From: Spirochaetales bacterium
GTDB taxonomy: Bacteria; Spirochaetota; Spirochaetia; DSM-2461
Reading direction: 5' to 3'
DNA length: 34,299 nucleotides
Assembly (NCBI GenBank): GCA_028532905.1
Contig: JAQQAM010000214.1
Location: forward strand, 1-34,299
Shown here piece after piece: positions 19,625 to 34,299 of the stretch. Under the pieces are notes generated by a model. That model worked only from the letters and a program-made list of their open reading frames with translations, did no database searches and was not told the origin of the DNA. Each line of letters begins with the position of its first letter. Position 1 is the first letter of the stretch. The translations under genes and the position numbers were made by a program.

Positions 19625-19693
19625 CCGCTGGAGTAATATAGATATGTGCGGTTAAGGCTTCTCAATATCTCGGCAAGGAGTTTGGAATTTCAT

Positions 19694-20728
19694 ATGAATA
19701 CAAATCAGAATGACCTTCAGCCTCTGAATAATTATGTTATATTTCAGACCGATTCCGGAAAAGTAAACATAGACGTTTTCTTTTTTGAGGATACTCTCTG
19801 GCTTACACAAAAAAAAATTGCCGAATTATTCGAAAAAGGGCGAAGTACAGTAGCTGAACATCTAAAGCAGATCTTCATCGATGGAGAACTGGAAGAACAA
19901 GTGGTATGTCGACATTTCCGACATACCACTCCGCACGGAGCCATTGATGGGAAAACTCAGGAACATGATGTTAAGTATTATAACCTGAAAGCTATTACAG
20001 CTGTTGGCTATAGAGTAAACTCTCAAAGGGCAATAGAATTCAGAAAGTGGGCAACAGACGTTCTGCATGAATACATCATCAAAGGTTTTGCCATGGACGA
20101 TGAGAGGATGAAATCTCTACAGCATTTCGGCCAGGATTACTTTGATGAACTTCTTGAACGTATCAGGGAAATCCGTCTTAGTGAAAGAAGGTTCTATCAG
20201 AAAATCACAGACATCTATGCTCTTTCTGCCGATTACGACAAGAACTCTGATGTAACAAAAGAATTCTTTGCAACGGTTCAGAATAAATTGCACTGGGCCA
20301 TTCAGGGAAAAACTGCAGCTGAGATAATCTACACAGAAGCAGATGCATCAAAAATCTATATGGGGTTAAAAACATGGAAACATGCCCCTGACGGCAAGAT
20401 TCTTAAATCAGATGTTACTATTGCTAAAAACTATCTTGAAACGGAACATCTGAAAGAACTGGAAAGAATAGTATCAGCCTATCTTGACCTTGCTGAAAAT
20501 AGAGCCAAACGCAGTATTGTGATGAATATGAAGGACTGGGTTGTGTTTCTTGACCGCTTTCTTGAACTATCGGATTACCCAATACTACTGGATCAGGGAA
20601 AGATATCGGCTCTTAAAGCAAAACTAAAAGCGGAAGCAGAATATGACAAATACAGAGTCATTCAGGACAGAGACTATATCTCTGATTTTGATAAAGAAGT
20701 AAATAAATTATTAAAGGATAAACATTAA
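19694..20728 (+). CDS. RhuM-family protein
   Basis: The 344-residue product belongs to the RhuM (virulence protein RhuM / Fic-neighbour) family, found on genomic islands and beside restriction or toxin genes in many bacteria. Family blocks seen: DTLWLTQKKIAELFEKGRSTVAEHLKQIF (winged-helix-like DNA-binding segment near the N-terminus), FRHTTPHGAIDGKTQ, and YYNLKAITAVGYRVNSQRAIEFRKWATDVL. The molecular function is not established. The ATG at 19694 is preferred because homologues start a few residues before the NYVIFQTDSG strand and AAGGAG lies upstream, though 14 nt away. A GTG at 19646 would add 16 residues. Codon use is more AT-rich than neighbours and the flanks hold a repeat and a gene remnant, so horizontal acquisition is likely. 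Confidence 0.88.
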   Translation: MNTNQNDLQPLNNYVIFQTDSGKVNIDVFFFEDTLWLTQKKIAELFEKGRSTVAEHLKQIFIDGELEEQVVCRHFRHTTPHGAIDGKTQEHDVKYYNLKAITAVGYRVNSQRAIEFRKWATDVLHEYIIKGFAMDDERMKSLQHFGQDYFDELLERIREIRLSERRFYQKITDIYALSADYDKNSDVTKEFFATVQNKLHWAIQGKTAAEIIYTEADASKIYMGLKTWKHAPDGKILKSDVTIAKNYLETEHLKELERIVSAYLDLAENRAKRSIVMNMKDWVVFLDRFLELSDYPILLDQGKISALKAKLKAEAEYDKYRVIQDRDYISDFDKEVNKLLKDKH

Positions 20729-29963: not shown

Positions 29964-29992
29964 TTGCCATCCCCTGTATTTTTCGTTAACCT
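29964..29992 (+). promoter_or_regulatory. Candidate promoter of the biotin operon
   Basis: TTGCCA (29964-29969) and TAACCT (29987-29992) with a 17-bp spacer. The -10 box lies inside the left arm of the BirA-type operator, so repressor binding would block it. A start near 29999 would leave a leader of only a few bases before the ATG at 30005. The -10 match is weak (3-4/6). Confidence 0.35.
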
Positions 29993-30013
29993 TCCAAACC
30001 ATCCATGGTTAAC
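29985..30013. promoter_or_regulatory. BirA-type operator overlapping the start codon
   Basis: GTTAACC (29985-29991), a 15-bp spacer, and GGTTAAC (30007-30013) make a perfect 7-bp dyad, extended by C-A rich flanks (right flank AAAA). This matches the known bacterial BirA operator form, TTGTTAACC-N15-GGTTAACAA, in both half-site sequence and spacing. It covers the ATG of the BirA-like gene (30005-30007) and the first two codons. Confidence 0.85.
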
Positions 30014-30802
30014 AAAACGTCAAAACAACAGATTCTCTCACTCATAAAGAAATCGGACTCCCCCTTGTCGGGAGAGGAAATCAGCAGAGAAATCGGTATC
30101 ACCAGAGTCGCCGTATGGAAGCAGATTCAGTCTCTTATAGAAGAAGGATACGCCATAGAGTCCAGCTCCAAAGGGTACAGACTCAACCGGGAGGGAGACT
30201 ATCTTTCAAAGCTGGAGTTCAGCGGCGATCAGGATATTCTGTTTTACAGAGAACTGAACTCAACCATGGATGAAGCGGTCAGGCAGCTCTCGGTCCAGCC
30301 GGAGGAAGCCCGGAGCTTCACCGTTCTCGCCGATCACCAGAATGCCGGTCTGGGCCGGGACGAAAATACCTGGGAATCTCCCAGCGGCGGTATCTACATG
30401 ACCTTCGTTATACGGGAGAATCTCCCTCTGGATGCAGCCGGGCAGCTGAAAAAGAAAGGCATTTATACGGCTTTGAGTGCTCTGCAGACCCTGGGCGGTA
30501 TCCCGGGCAAAATGCTTTCCTACACATATGAAGGAAATTTATTCCTCCGGGAAAAGAAGATCGGAGGTCTTCTGGAAGAGTACCTTGTCCGGGGTGACAG
30601 GATGCTCTGGTACACCCTGGGACTGGGGATTCACCTGAATGATTCCCCCTCCCCCCCTCTGTACTCCGTCAGATCTCTTCTGGACAGAGACCTGAACAGG
30701 GTTGCTGTTATAAAAGAAATCAAACAGATCTGGGATTTGTCCCGGAAGAAAGATATGAAAGAAATTACAGATTCATTGGAGAAAGATTATGTCAAAAGAT
30801 AA
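30005..30802 (+). CDS. birA: BirA-like biotin regulator with degenerate ligase site
   Basis: A 265-residue two-domain protein: BirA-type winged helix (about 8-60; LSGEEISREIGITRVAVWKQIQSL, SSKGYRL) and a biotin protein ligase fold (about 78-260; ELNSTMDEA, WESPSGG, KKIGGLLEE, LGLGIHLND). The two catalytic signatures are lost. GRGRRGRKW reads GLGRDENTW (115-123), and KWPND, with the Lys that contacts biotinyl-AMP, reads TYEGN (174-178). Ligation is doubtful. It heads a biotin-uptake operon and its start lies inside a BirA-type operator, so autoregulated repression is likely. No Shine-Dalgarno precedes the ATG; no better start exists without cutting the helix-turn-helix. bioY overlaps the stop by 14 bp. 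Confidence 0.88.
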   Translation: MVNKTSKQQILSLIKKSDSPLSGEEISREIGITRVAVWKQIQSLIEEGYAIESSSKGYRLNREGDYLSKLEFSGDQDILFYRELNSTMDEAVRQLSVQPEEARSFTVLADHQNAGLGRDENTWESPSGGIYMTFVIRENLPLDAAGQLKKKGIYTALSALQTLGGIPGKMLSYTYEGNLFLREKKIGGLLEEYLVRGDRMLWYTLGLGIHLNDSPSPPLYSVRSLLDRDLNRVAVIKEIKQIWDLSRKKDMKEITDSLEKDYVKR

Positions 30803-31349
30803 AATCAGAAAAACCGTACTGGCTGCGGTGTTTACGGCTCTTATTGCCGCCAGTTCATTCTTTACCATTCCCGTGGGGCCTGTTCCGATTGTTCTGACAA
30901 CCATGTTTGTCGTGCTGAGCGGTATGCTGGGAGGGCCCTGGGTGGGACTTTCGGCTGTGGGCAGTTACCTTATACTGGGAATTATCGGACTTCCCGTCTT
31001 TGCCGGCGGAACAGCGGGCATTGCCAAACTGATGGGGCCCACCGGAGGCTTTCTCATCGGATACCTCCTCGCCCCTGTGGCAGGGGGTTTCATCTTCAAT
31101 CCTCCCGGGGACAAGGCAAAAGGACTGAAGGTTCTTCTGGCAGTTCTGGGTGCCTTTACAGCGGGGGCTCTGATCTATGTTCCCGGCATCCCCTGGCTCA
31201 AATACAGTCTGTCCATGGACTGGCCTTCGGCTCTGCAGGCGGGTCTGATTCCCTTTATTCCCGGATTTATCATCAAAAATGCAGCTGCCGCAGCCCTCGC
31301 CTTTGCCCTGAAAGAGAGATTTCAGAATTTTCTTAAATCAGAAGAGTAA
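30789..31349 (+). CDS. bioY: Biotin ECF transporter S component BioY
   Basis: BioY is the membrane protein that binds biotin and, with the ECF energy module, carries it into the cell. The 186-residue length and about six helices fit. Seen motifs are FTIPVGPVPIVLTTMFVVLSGMLGGPW (25-51) and the conserved GLPVFAGGTAGIAKLMGPTGGFLIGY (67-92), whose VPIVL/T and GGxxGxxxLxGPTGGYL elements define BioY. The ATG has GGAGAAAG upstream and overlaps the birA stop by 14 bp, so translation is coupled. Confidence 0.97.
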   Translation: MSKDKIRKTVLAAVFTALIAASSFFTIPVGPVPIVLTTMFVVLSGMLGGPWVGLSAVGSYLILGIIGLPVFAGGTAGIAKLMGPTGGFLIGYLLAPVAGGFIFNPPGDKAKGLKVLLAVLGAFTAGALIYVPGIPWLKYSLSMDWPSALQAGLIPFIPGFIIKNAAAAALAFALKERFQNFLKSEE

Positions 31350-31363
31350 GGCGGAAACAGACC

Positions 31364-32110
31364 ATGCTGGAAGTACAGGGGCTCACTAGAACCTACACAG
31401 AGGGCAGGAAGGTGCTGGATAATATCAATCTCAGCTTCTCCGAAGGGAGCTTCACCATTATTGCCGGCCCCAACGGTTCAGGAAAAACACAGTTGATGCG
31501 TCATTTGAACGGTCTGCTCAAACCCCAGAGCGGGAAAATCCTGCTCCGGGGCAGGGACATCAGGGAAAACCTGACAGAGACCAGAAAACGCATCGGCCTC
31601 GTTTTTCAGAACGCAGACAGCCAGATCGTGGGCCAGACAGTTGCGTCGGACATCTGCTTCGGAGCCGAAAACCTGAAATGGTCCCGGAAGCGGATCAATG
31701 AAAAGCTGGAATCCCTGCTCCGGGAATTTTCCATTTCAGAACTGCGGAACAGGCGTCCCCATACCTTGTCGGGGGGAGAAAAAAGGCGCTGTGTTCTGGC
31801 GGCGGTTCTGATTATGGAACCCGAAATAATCGTACTGGATGAGCCCTTCACCGGTCTGGACAGAGACGGCGTTCAGGATGTTCTTAAAGATATTACCCGT
31901 CTCCACAAAGAGGGAAAGACCATTATCCTTATTACCCATGACCTGGAAAAGTCCCTGGCTCATGCGGACAGACTGGTTCTTATGGACAAAGGATCAGTCG
32001 TGGAAGACGGCCGTCCGGCGGATCTGCTGGACAGGCTGGAGAGTGCGGGGATCAGAAAACCCTGGGGTGAAAACCGGGATCTGGAGAGTATGACATGGCT
32101 GGCTCCCTGA
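31364..32110 (+). CDS. bioM: ECF transporter ATPase (BioM/EcfA)
   Basis: The ATP-hydrolysing subunit of the biotin ECF transporter. The 248-residue ABC ATPase has Walker A GPNGSGKT (35-42), Q-loop Gln82 (FQNADSQ, typical of EcfA), signature LSGGEK (135-140), Walker B IIVLDE (155-160) and switch His192 (THD). A single ATPase gene implies a homodimer, as in BioMNY systems, not the EcfA/EcfA' pair of shared group II modules. The start is 15 bp after the bioY stop; bioN overlaps its end by 16 bp. Confidence 0.96.
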   Translation: MLEVQGLTRTYTEGRKVLDNINLSFSEGSFTIIAGPNGSGKTQLMRHLNGLLKPQSGKILLRGRDIRENLTETRKRIGLVFQNADSQIVGQTVASDICFGAENLKWSRKRINEKLESLLREFSISELRNRRPHTLSGGEKRRCVLAAVLIMEPEIIVLDEPFTGLDRDGVQDVLKDITRLHKEGKTIILITHDLEKSLAHADRLVLMDKGSVVEDGRPADLLDRLESAGIRKPWGENRDLESMTWLAP

Positions 32111-32871
32111 TGTTTCAGTACCAGCCGGGATCATCGGTTCTCCACCGTTCCGACATAAGGGTAAAACTGATCATCATGATTGCCCTGAGTCTGGTCCTGA
32201 TTCAGGTAAGTGTCTTCAGACTGTCCCTGCTCCTGCCGTTCCTGTTGCTGCTGCAATGCTCCCTCAAACGAAGACCTCTCCCTCCTCCCCTTCCCGTCCT
32301 GTTTATGCCGGCCTTGATTTTTACCGGGAATTTTCTGTCTCTGGCAGCAGGCGATGCCCTTTTAAGTTCTGCCCTGATCACGGCAGGGCTCCGGACAGTC
32401 CGGTTTACCTTTATTTTGTGGATGGCTCAGCTTTTTACAGAGACCAGTGATCCCATGTGCCTCACTCCCGCTTTTTACCGGCTTCTGAAACATATTCCTC
32501 TGATCCCTGCCGGGCGCATCAGCACACAGCTGGGCCTGTCTCTCACCCTGATTCCGGTGATTCTGGAAGAGATGAACGAAATCAGAGATGCCATGATATC
32601 CCGCTGCGGCTGGAATCCCCGCAGCCCCCTGAAAAACCTTGTCCATATGGGACAGCCCCTCCTCAATGGTGTTCTTTTGAAGGCAGAAGCTCTGTCGGAT
32701 GCCATGGAAGCCAGACTCTTTACAGAAGACTCAACAGAACCGGAGCTCCTGGGCAGTTCATCAGTCCTTCTGCCCCTTCTGGCTGGGTCATTGTTTATCC
32801 TGATTCTGCTGGCAGGAGAATATGTGCTTTCCCGCTCCGGAAGCAGCTCTTTTTTTGTTCAGTTTTTCTGA
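32095..32871 (+). CDS. bioN: ECF transporter transmembrane protein (BioN/EcfT)
   Basis: The 258-residue membrane subunit that couples the ATPase to BioY. About five hydrophobic helices are seen (38-60, 70-88, 100-118, 145-160, 222-242). The cytoplasmic coupling region carries two EcfT-type signatures, AMISRCGW (first A-x-x-x-R-x-G helix) and DAMEARLF (second); the second lacks the usual Gly after Arg. N-terminal FQYQPGSSVLHRSDIRVKLI matches the family opening (hxxDPRxKL). GGAG lies 8 nt before the ATG; an alternative ATG at 32110 would give a TGATG junction with bioM. It is the last gene of the operon. Confidence 0.92.
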   Translation: MAGSLMFQYQPGSSVLHRSDIRVKLIIMIALSLVLIQVSVFRLSLLLPFLLLLQCSLKRRPLPPPLPVLFMPALIFTGNFLSLAAGDALLSSALITAGLRTVRFTFILWMAQLFTETSDPMCLTPAFYRLLKHIPLIPAGRISTQLGLSLTLIPVILEEMNEIRDAMISRCGWNPRSPLKNLVHMGQPLLNGVLLKAEALSDAMEARLFTEDSTEPELLGSSSVLLPLLAGSLFILILLAGEYVLSRSGSSSFFVQFF

Positions 32872-32927: not shown

Positions 32928-32956
32928 TTGCATTACATCCTACATATATGTATGAT
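32928..32956 (+). promoter_or_regulatory. Sigma-70-type promoter of the NifA-like gene
   Basis: TTGCAT (32928-32933), 17-bp spacer, TATGAT (32951-32956). A start 7 nt on would fall at 32963, exactly at the ATG. The perfect palindrome TACATATATGTA (32941-32952) overlaps the -10 box and may be an operator. Confidence 0.55.
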
Positions 32957-32962
32957 CATCCC

Positions 32963-34299
32963 ATGTCAGAAACAATGAATTCCAAACATTACCGCAGAAA
33001 AATAAAGGAGCTGACTCTCCTATTCGAAATCAGTCAGATTCTGGAGCAGGATCTTGACCTGAAAGAGGTCATCAATCCCCTTCTTGAACCCCTAGCCGAA
33101 AACATAGGTATGGAGCGGGGAACCATAACGCTCCTGAACAGAAAAACCGGCGAAATATCCATTGAAGCAGCCTACGGCCTTTCAAGAGAAGAGCAGATCA
33201 AGGGCCGTTACAAAATTGGAGAAGGTGTTACGGGAAAAGTTGTTCAGACCGGTCAGCCCATGATCATTCCCGATATTGATGAAGAACCCTCCTTTCTGGA
33301 CCGTACGGGGGCCAGAAAAAGCAGAAAGAAGACTTCCTTTATCTGTGTTCCCATTAAAAGCGGGAATTCTGTGATCGGTGCATTCAGTGTTGACAGACCC
33401 TATCAGGAATCCAGCCTGGATCTTGAAGATGATGTCCGGCTTCTGACAATTGTAGCCTCCATGATCGCCCGGGCGGTAAAGCTCAGACAGCGTTCGGAGG
33501 AAGAGAAAGAGAAACTTGTAGAGGAAAATACAAGACTCCAGAATGAACTGAAAGACCGTTTTCAGCCGGATAATATGATCGGCAGCTCCCCTGCCATGCA
33601 GGAAGTGTTCGACCTGATCGCCCAGGTGTCAAAAAGTGAAGCCACTGTCCTGATCAGAGGAGAGAGCGGAACGGGTAAAGAACTCGTAGCCCATGCGATC
33701 CATTACAACAGCCTGCGGGCGGAAAAACCTTTTATAAAGGTGAACTGTGCAGCCCTTCCGGAAAGTGTCATCGAAAGCGAACTCTTCGGCCATGAGAAAG
33801 GAGCCTTCACGGGGGCCCTGGCCACCAGAAAAGGACGTTTCGAGATGGCTGACGGGGGTACCATTTTCCTCGATGAAATCGGAGAGCTCTCGGCCATGAC
33901 TCAGGTCAAGCTTCTGAGAGTGCTGCAGGAAAGAGAAATTGAACGTGTGGGCGGTTCGGAAACCATCAAGGTCAATGTCAGGGTCATTGCGGCCACCAAC
34001 AGAAACCTGGAAGAGGAAATTGCTGCCGGCTCCTTCCGGGAAGACCTCTACTACAGGCTGAATGTTTTTCCCGTTCATATTCCCCCCTTGAGAGAGAGAA
34101 AAACGGATATAATGCTCCTGGCCGACTTTTTTACGGAAAAATACAGCAGAAAGAACAGGAAAACCGTTAAAAGAATCTCCAGTTCAGCCATAGACCTGAT
34201 TATGAGCTACCACTGGCCCGGCAATGTACGGGAACTGGAGAACTGTATTGAAAGAGCCTCCCTCCTCAGCACCGATCAGGTCATCCATGCCTATCATCT
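32963..34299 (+). CDS. Sigma-54-dependent activator with GAF domain (NifA-like), 3' partial
   Basis: An enhancer-binding activator of RNA polymerase sigma-54. Order of domains: N-terminal GAF domain (about 10-175; [47 protein letters not shown]), short linker coiled coil (about 178-200), then the AAA+ domain beginning at [12 protein letters not shown]. The AAA+ part has Walker A GESGTGKE, the sigma-54 contact loop GAFTGA ([13 protein letters not shown]), Walker [13 protein letters not shown] and the arginine region [13 protein letters not shown]. The window ends in the C-terminal part of the AAA+ lid ([15 protein letters not shown]), so the Fis-type DNA-binding domain is missing. The layout is that of NifA/NorR-like regulators; the target genes are outside the window. 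ATG choice: 32963 fits the promoter; 32948 and 32975 are alternatives. No Shine-Dalgarno is visible for any. Confidence 0.93.

Follow-up and report, generated by a model that had tools for sequence, protein, structure and literature searches.

An eroded BirA-type protein as a probable dedicated repressor of biotin uptake in a spirochaete

Background

In the textbook BirA, the co-repressor is the intermediate of the protein's own reaction, an arrangement that couples the control of biotin genes to the demand for protein biotinylation. Another vitamin regulator likewise joins a helix-turn-helix (HTH) to a biosynthetic-enzyme domain, with a vitamin and a fold that differ from those of the protein described here. 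NiaR, a niacin sensor with a ligand domain unrelated to that of BirA, was matched in our profile search (HTH_11 plus 3H domain, "biotin repressor family" fold) and shares the BirA-like HTH.

We analyzed a stretch of 34,299 nucleotides (the window) from contig JAQQAM010000214.1 of a Spirochaetales bacterium, in which a gene at positions 30005-30802 of the forward strand, with an ATG start, encodes a BirA-type protein of 265 amino acids. Judged from its sequence, the locus appears to share with the Group II biotin protein ligases (BPL/BirA) of E. coli, S. aureus, and B. subtilis a winged helix fused to a BPL core, a palindromic operator of the GTTAAC type, and the control of biotin uptake. The 265-aa protein departs from those enzymes in that the KWPND motif, R116, R121, N208, and the C-terminal domain are all missing, and in that the same genome encodes a separate BPL. 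Automatic annotation would probably label it a bifunctional ligase.

The locus is also similar to the BirA1/BirA2 pair of L. lactis, a biotin auxotroph in which an HTH-bearing BirA binds a bioY operator and a separate monofunctional BPL is present (PMC4861984). However, neither domain has been lost from L. lactis BirA1 (323 aa), which has measurable ligase activity (PMC4861984) and represents an earlier stage than the 265-aa protein. As far as the account cited in PMC4861984 goes, Francisella BirA/BplA is a further system with two ligases, one of them carrying a regulatory domain, but there BirA is said to be bifunctional and BioY was not detected. In both two-ligase systems (Lactococcus and Francisella), the regulatory BirA is thus held to be a ligase, either active or bifunctional, which sets the present case apart from them, and our search of papers available without subscription found no BirA that represses only and is not a ligase. 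We estimate a probability of about 0.72 that the 265-aa protein descends from a bifunctional BirA, has lost ligation, and now serves solely as an auto-repressor of biotin uptake, with protein biotinylation carried out by the separate BPL. The case for a repressor is built on the eroded motifs, the missing domain, the separate ligase, the conservation of operator and promoter, and the operon.

Architecture of the protein

The protein consists of a winged helix (residues 1 to about 66) followed by an eroded biotin-ligase core. The winged helix, noted in the first-pass annotation from the sequence alone, was borne out by a profile match to HTH_11 (PF08279) at residues 8-59 (E 6.2e-14), and the core was matched by BPL_LplA_LipB (PF03099) at residues 85-192 (E 5e-7; 30.1 bits against a cut-off of 21). 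The protein scored below the cut-offs of TIGR00122 (56.2 bits, cut-off 70) and of the curated ligase model TIGR00121 (63.7 bits, cut-off 83.1). The structure predicted from 17 relatives had a mean pLDDT of 92.9, and its best match among solved structures in Foldseek was the S. aureus BPL 3rir (E 2e-19, TM 0.74 over the query).

The same annotation had held the rest of the ligase fold to be intact, which is wrong. Only 3 residues follow the ligase core, whereas the count is 53-66 in those BirA and BPL relatives from the family that are complete and intact; the C-terminal SH3-like ligase domain is missing, and the predicted structure finishes with two helices. The Pfam BPL_C profile is uninformative on this domain, with no match even in the intact BPL paralogue of the same genome. 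As bifunctional BirA ligases are defined, the 265-aa protein falls outside them.

Biotin-uptake operon and separate ligase

Three transporter genes follow on the forward strand, namely bioY for the biotin-specific S-component of an ECF transporter (30789-31349; PF02632, E 3.2e-35), which overlaps the end of the repressor gene, an ECF transporter ATPase (bioM/ecfA; 31364-32110; PF00005, E 1.5e-32), and a T-component (bioN/ecfT; 32095-32871; PF02361 CbiQ, E 1.5e-14). The ATPase scored 233 bits with TIGR04520, under the cut-off of 315. With S-, A-, and T-components adjacent and only overlaps or short gaps between the operon genes, the cluster forms an ECF biotin transporter of the BioY-BioM-BioN type, in agreement with the earlier proposal that a BirA paralogue heads a biotin-uptake operon. 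The order birA-bioY-ecfA-ecfT recurs across the family together with operator and promoter. No bioB was found above the curated cut-off in a profile search of the genus genomes, so uptake appears to be the sole source of biotin.

Outside the operon, a gene with GAF and AAA+ domains (by eye NifA-like, of the sigma-54 activator type) lies directly 3' at 32948-34297 and runs off the window, and a gene that by eye resembles RhuM is found at 19646-20728, downstream of lon.

It had also been predicted that a second BirA/BPL with intact motifs must exist elsewhere in the genome, and we found one on contig C208 (L001:1456-2202). This monofunctional BPL of 248 aa carries SGRGRGLNRTW and KWPND and reaches 111.8 bits with TIGR00121, against the cut-off of 83.1; without an HTH, with intact GRGR...W and KWPND motifs, and with the C-terminal domain present, it is a Group I BPL. 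A lipoate ligase was identified on contig C216 of the same genome. Biotin acceptors with the AMKM motif are present as well, so a ligase is needed. An intact BPL was identified in 5 of the 6 genus members and, at the family level, in each of the six genera; none was found in the remaining genus member, G004, the genome of which is 85% complete. On the tree, BirA and BPL form separate clades; the BPL is therefore not a recent copy.

Operator and promoter

A BirA-type operator, of which the first-pass annotation made no mention, is predicted at 29985-30013 as the palindrome GTTAACC-N15-GGTTAAC, which overlaps both the -10 region and the start codon, with its portion ATGGTTAAC encoding MVN at the N-terminus of the repressor. 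The predicted sigma-70-type promoter (29964-29992, forward strand) consists of the -35 hexamer TTGCCA (29964-29969), a 17-base spacer, and a -10-like TAACCT (29987-29992) that sits within the left operator half.

The operator is the sole exact match in the 4.98-Mb genome, and, with looser spacing allowed, four further genus members had one operator each, so that it was unique in all five members searched. Perfect GTTAAC halves occur in 19 of 19 family loci and in all 6 genus members, although the spacers have diverged; the halves lie 15-17 bases apart, always at the start codon of the repressor, and most of the proteins start with MVN because the operator encodes it. Further, the TTG core of the -35 hexamer is located exactly 21 bases 5' of the operator in 15 of the 19 loci and within one base of that position in 16, whereas the runner-up offset accounts for 4. 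A Shine-Dalgarno-like sequence before the ATG is absent in 18 of the 19. From this arrangement, the left operator half probably carries the -10 element and the mRNA of the operon would be nearly leaderless, in which case a repressor sitting on the operator would obstruct initiation as well as the start site. The intact, conserved predicted operator supports the control of bioY-bioM-bioN that had been suggested from the gene order.

A chance origin of the operator was ruled out by its being the only exact match in the genome and by its recurrence in all relatives with diverged spacers. A wider regulon of boxes with 2-3 mismatches was dismissed, with 53 sites found against 49 in a reversed-pattern control.

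Eroded ligase motifs and the likely co-repressor

Both ligase signatures had been described as replaced, and the replacing sequences were found exactly as reported, with GLGRDENTW at residues 115-123 (30347-30373, forward strand) in place of the biotin-binding-loop motif GRGRRGRKW, and TYEGN at residues 174-178 (30524-30538, forward strand) in place of KWPND, by which the phosphate-contacting lysine (E. coli K183) is lost. The first motif, however, is only partly eroded, as it matches at G115, G117, R118, and W123 and has lost R116 and R121. Residues G115, R118, and W123 are unchanged in all 6 genus members, and the KWPND positions vary freely within the genus (TYEGN, SEEGG, TTGGD, SPAGD, and SDSGD). 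Of 20 BirA proteins of the family, 10 lack K183, 12 lack R121 (with K scored as retained), and 11 lack the adenine contact N208, and every one of the 20 has the biotin-pocket residues S89, T90, Q112, G115, G204, and G206 (E. coli numbering). Each of the 21 family BPLs has R118, R121, W123, KWPND, and N208 unbroken. When the motif columns are left out of the tree, the presence of K183 needs at least 6 changes.

In S. aureus BPL, the phosphate is held by K187 and R125 and the adenine by N212 and S128 (PMC5039522). The contacts lost in the eroded BirA proteins are the equivalents of these, and the ureido-ring contacts, a serine, a threonine, and a glutamine (roles as given in PMC5039522), are kept. 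Mutation of E. coli R118 gives a 100-fold higher biotin off-rate, and biotin is also contacted by W127 (PMC5039522); the retained R118 and W123 also serve biotin. Because the parts that handle ATP have gone and the biotin pocket has been retained together with its lid, the co-repressor is more likely to be free biotin than biotinyl-AMP. Among the points against a repressor of this kind are that the adenine-stacking W123 is kept genus-wide, as it would be in a sensor of biotinyl-AMP, that R116, a ureido-ring contact in S. aureus BPL, is lost, and that G004 yielded no separate BPL.

In the main rival reading, a dedicated repressor would instead capture biotinyl-5'-AMP made by the separate BPL in trans, and the sensor would then report unmet demand for biotinylation. 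We regard this as unlikely, albeit consistent with the invariance of W123 and R118 in the genus and with the use of biotinyl-5'-AMP as ligand by BirA repressors already characterised, among them those of E. coli and B. subtilis, the latter of which needs both biotin and ATP to bind its operator (PMC4016012). According to structure titles, archaeal BPL from P. horikoshii with a mutation of the KWPND lysine (K111A/G) was crystallised in complex with biotinyl-AMP, so loss of the lysine alone need not abolish binding of the adenylate. In the 265-aa protein, however, the phosphate contacts K183 and R121 and the adenine contact N208 are all replaced, and the C-terminal domain is gone. Further, biotinyl-AMP normally stays tightly bound to its producing enzyme, and little free adenylate would be expected.

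Slow synthesis of biotinyl-AMP by the protein itself, as a weak ligase or biotin-adenylating enzyme with the kept pocket, R118, and W123, is improbable to a greater degree. L. lactis BirA1 offers a parallel in retaining weak activity beside a second BPL (PMC4861984), and the lysine of the KxxG motif (K185), termed catalytic in PMC3048393, is invariant here. Against such activity, K183, R116, R121, and N208 have been lost along with the entire C-terminal domain, and the KWPND positions drift freely in the genus; the sequence points to a protein that has probably lost its ligase activity.

In the favoured reading, that of a dedicated auto-repressor, the protein would bind biotin, most likely in free form, when biotin is plentiful, and would dimerise and occupy the operator at 29985-30013. 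As this site covers the -10 region, the transcription start, and the start codon, binding would silence the repressor gene together with the bioY-ecfA-ecfT importer. When biotin is scarce, the repressor would leave the operator and uptake would be induced, with the separate BPL performing all protein biotinylation and the repressor none. A BirA unable to make biotinyl-AMP must sense something else, and sensing of biotin and of biotinyl-AMP should be directly separable here, since the protein is a natural one and has one target operon only.

Conservation and recurrence

The 265-aa protein is common to all 6 genus genomes at 45-62% identity, with one copy frameshifted. Comparison with the nearest relative gave dN 0.29, dS 1.65, and dN/dS of about 0.18, which indicates purifying selection, and the repressor gene evolves faster than bioY and ecfA. 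A decaying pseudogene, retained merely as the first gene of the operon, would fit this faster evolution and the frameshift in one genome (G003), but it is highly improbable and was rejected on the purifying selection and on the operator, which is perfect in all members, the gene being open in the other five, the winged helix 57-67% identical between species, and the biotin pocket invariant. In the G003 orthologue (L071:5010-5601), the frameshift splits the winged helix from the core and reflects either an assembly error or recent decay.

A single-sequence search of the genome contigs with the 265-aa protein returned no relatives, and an alignment-based search returned 26 loci, mostly of intact BirA. 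In a second family (f8) of the same class, we identified 2 genomes, G200 (a single-contig assembly) and G248, with a BirA that lacks both motifs and the C-terminal domain. Both have a perfect operator at the start codon, bioY and an ECF ATPase downstream, and an intact BPL elsewhere in the genome. In G188, a relative from this family, the GRGR motif, RWPND, and the C-terminal domain have all been retained. The erosion in this family and that in the genus are probably independent losses; the tree disfavours one shared origin, although the AU test does not reject a single one (p 0.245). We tentatively suggest that, on more than one occasion in the spirochaetes, BirA has turned into a pure sensor and repressor with free biotin as its signal, and that in every case the same ATP-handling half and the C-terminal domain were lost in the presence of a separate ligase. 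If true, this repeated conversion would uncouple the control of uptake from biotinylation demand. The 265-aa protein is a clear graded case of an enzyme becoming a dedicated regulator, and sister genera show the stages in between.

A second perfect site, GTTAAC-N16-GTTAAC, was found in G200 away from birA (L204, G200:C1:717141-717168). The BirA proteins of genus g5 (L076, L077, and L023) carry GISKDG..F and WPF[ED] and keep the C-terminal domain, apparently by a separate route away from the ligase motifs. In other spirochaete families (L144-L156), many HTH-bearing BirA proteins have R or H for the KWPND lysine and odd residues, such as Q or H, at R116/R118, and relaxed ligase motifs appear from these sequences to be common across the phylum.
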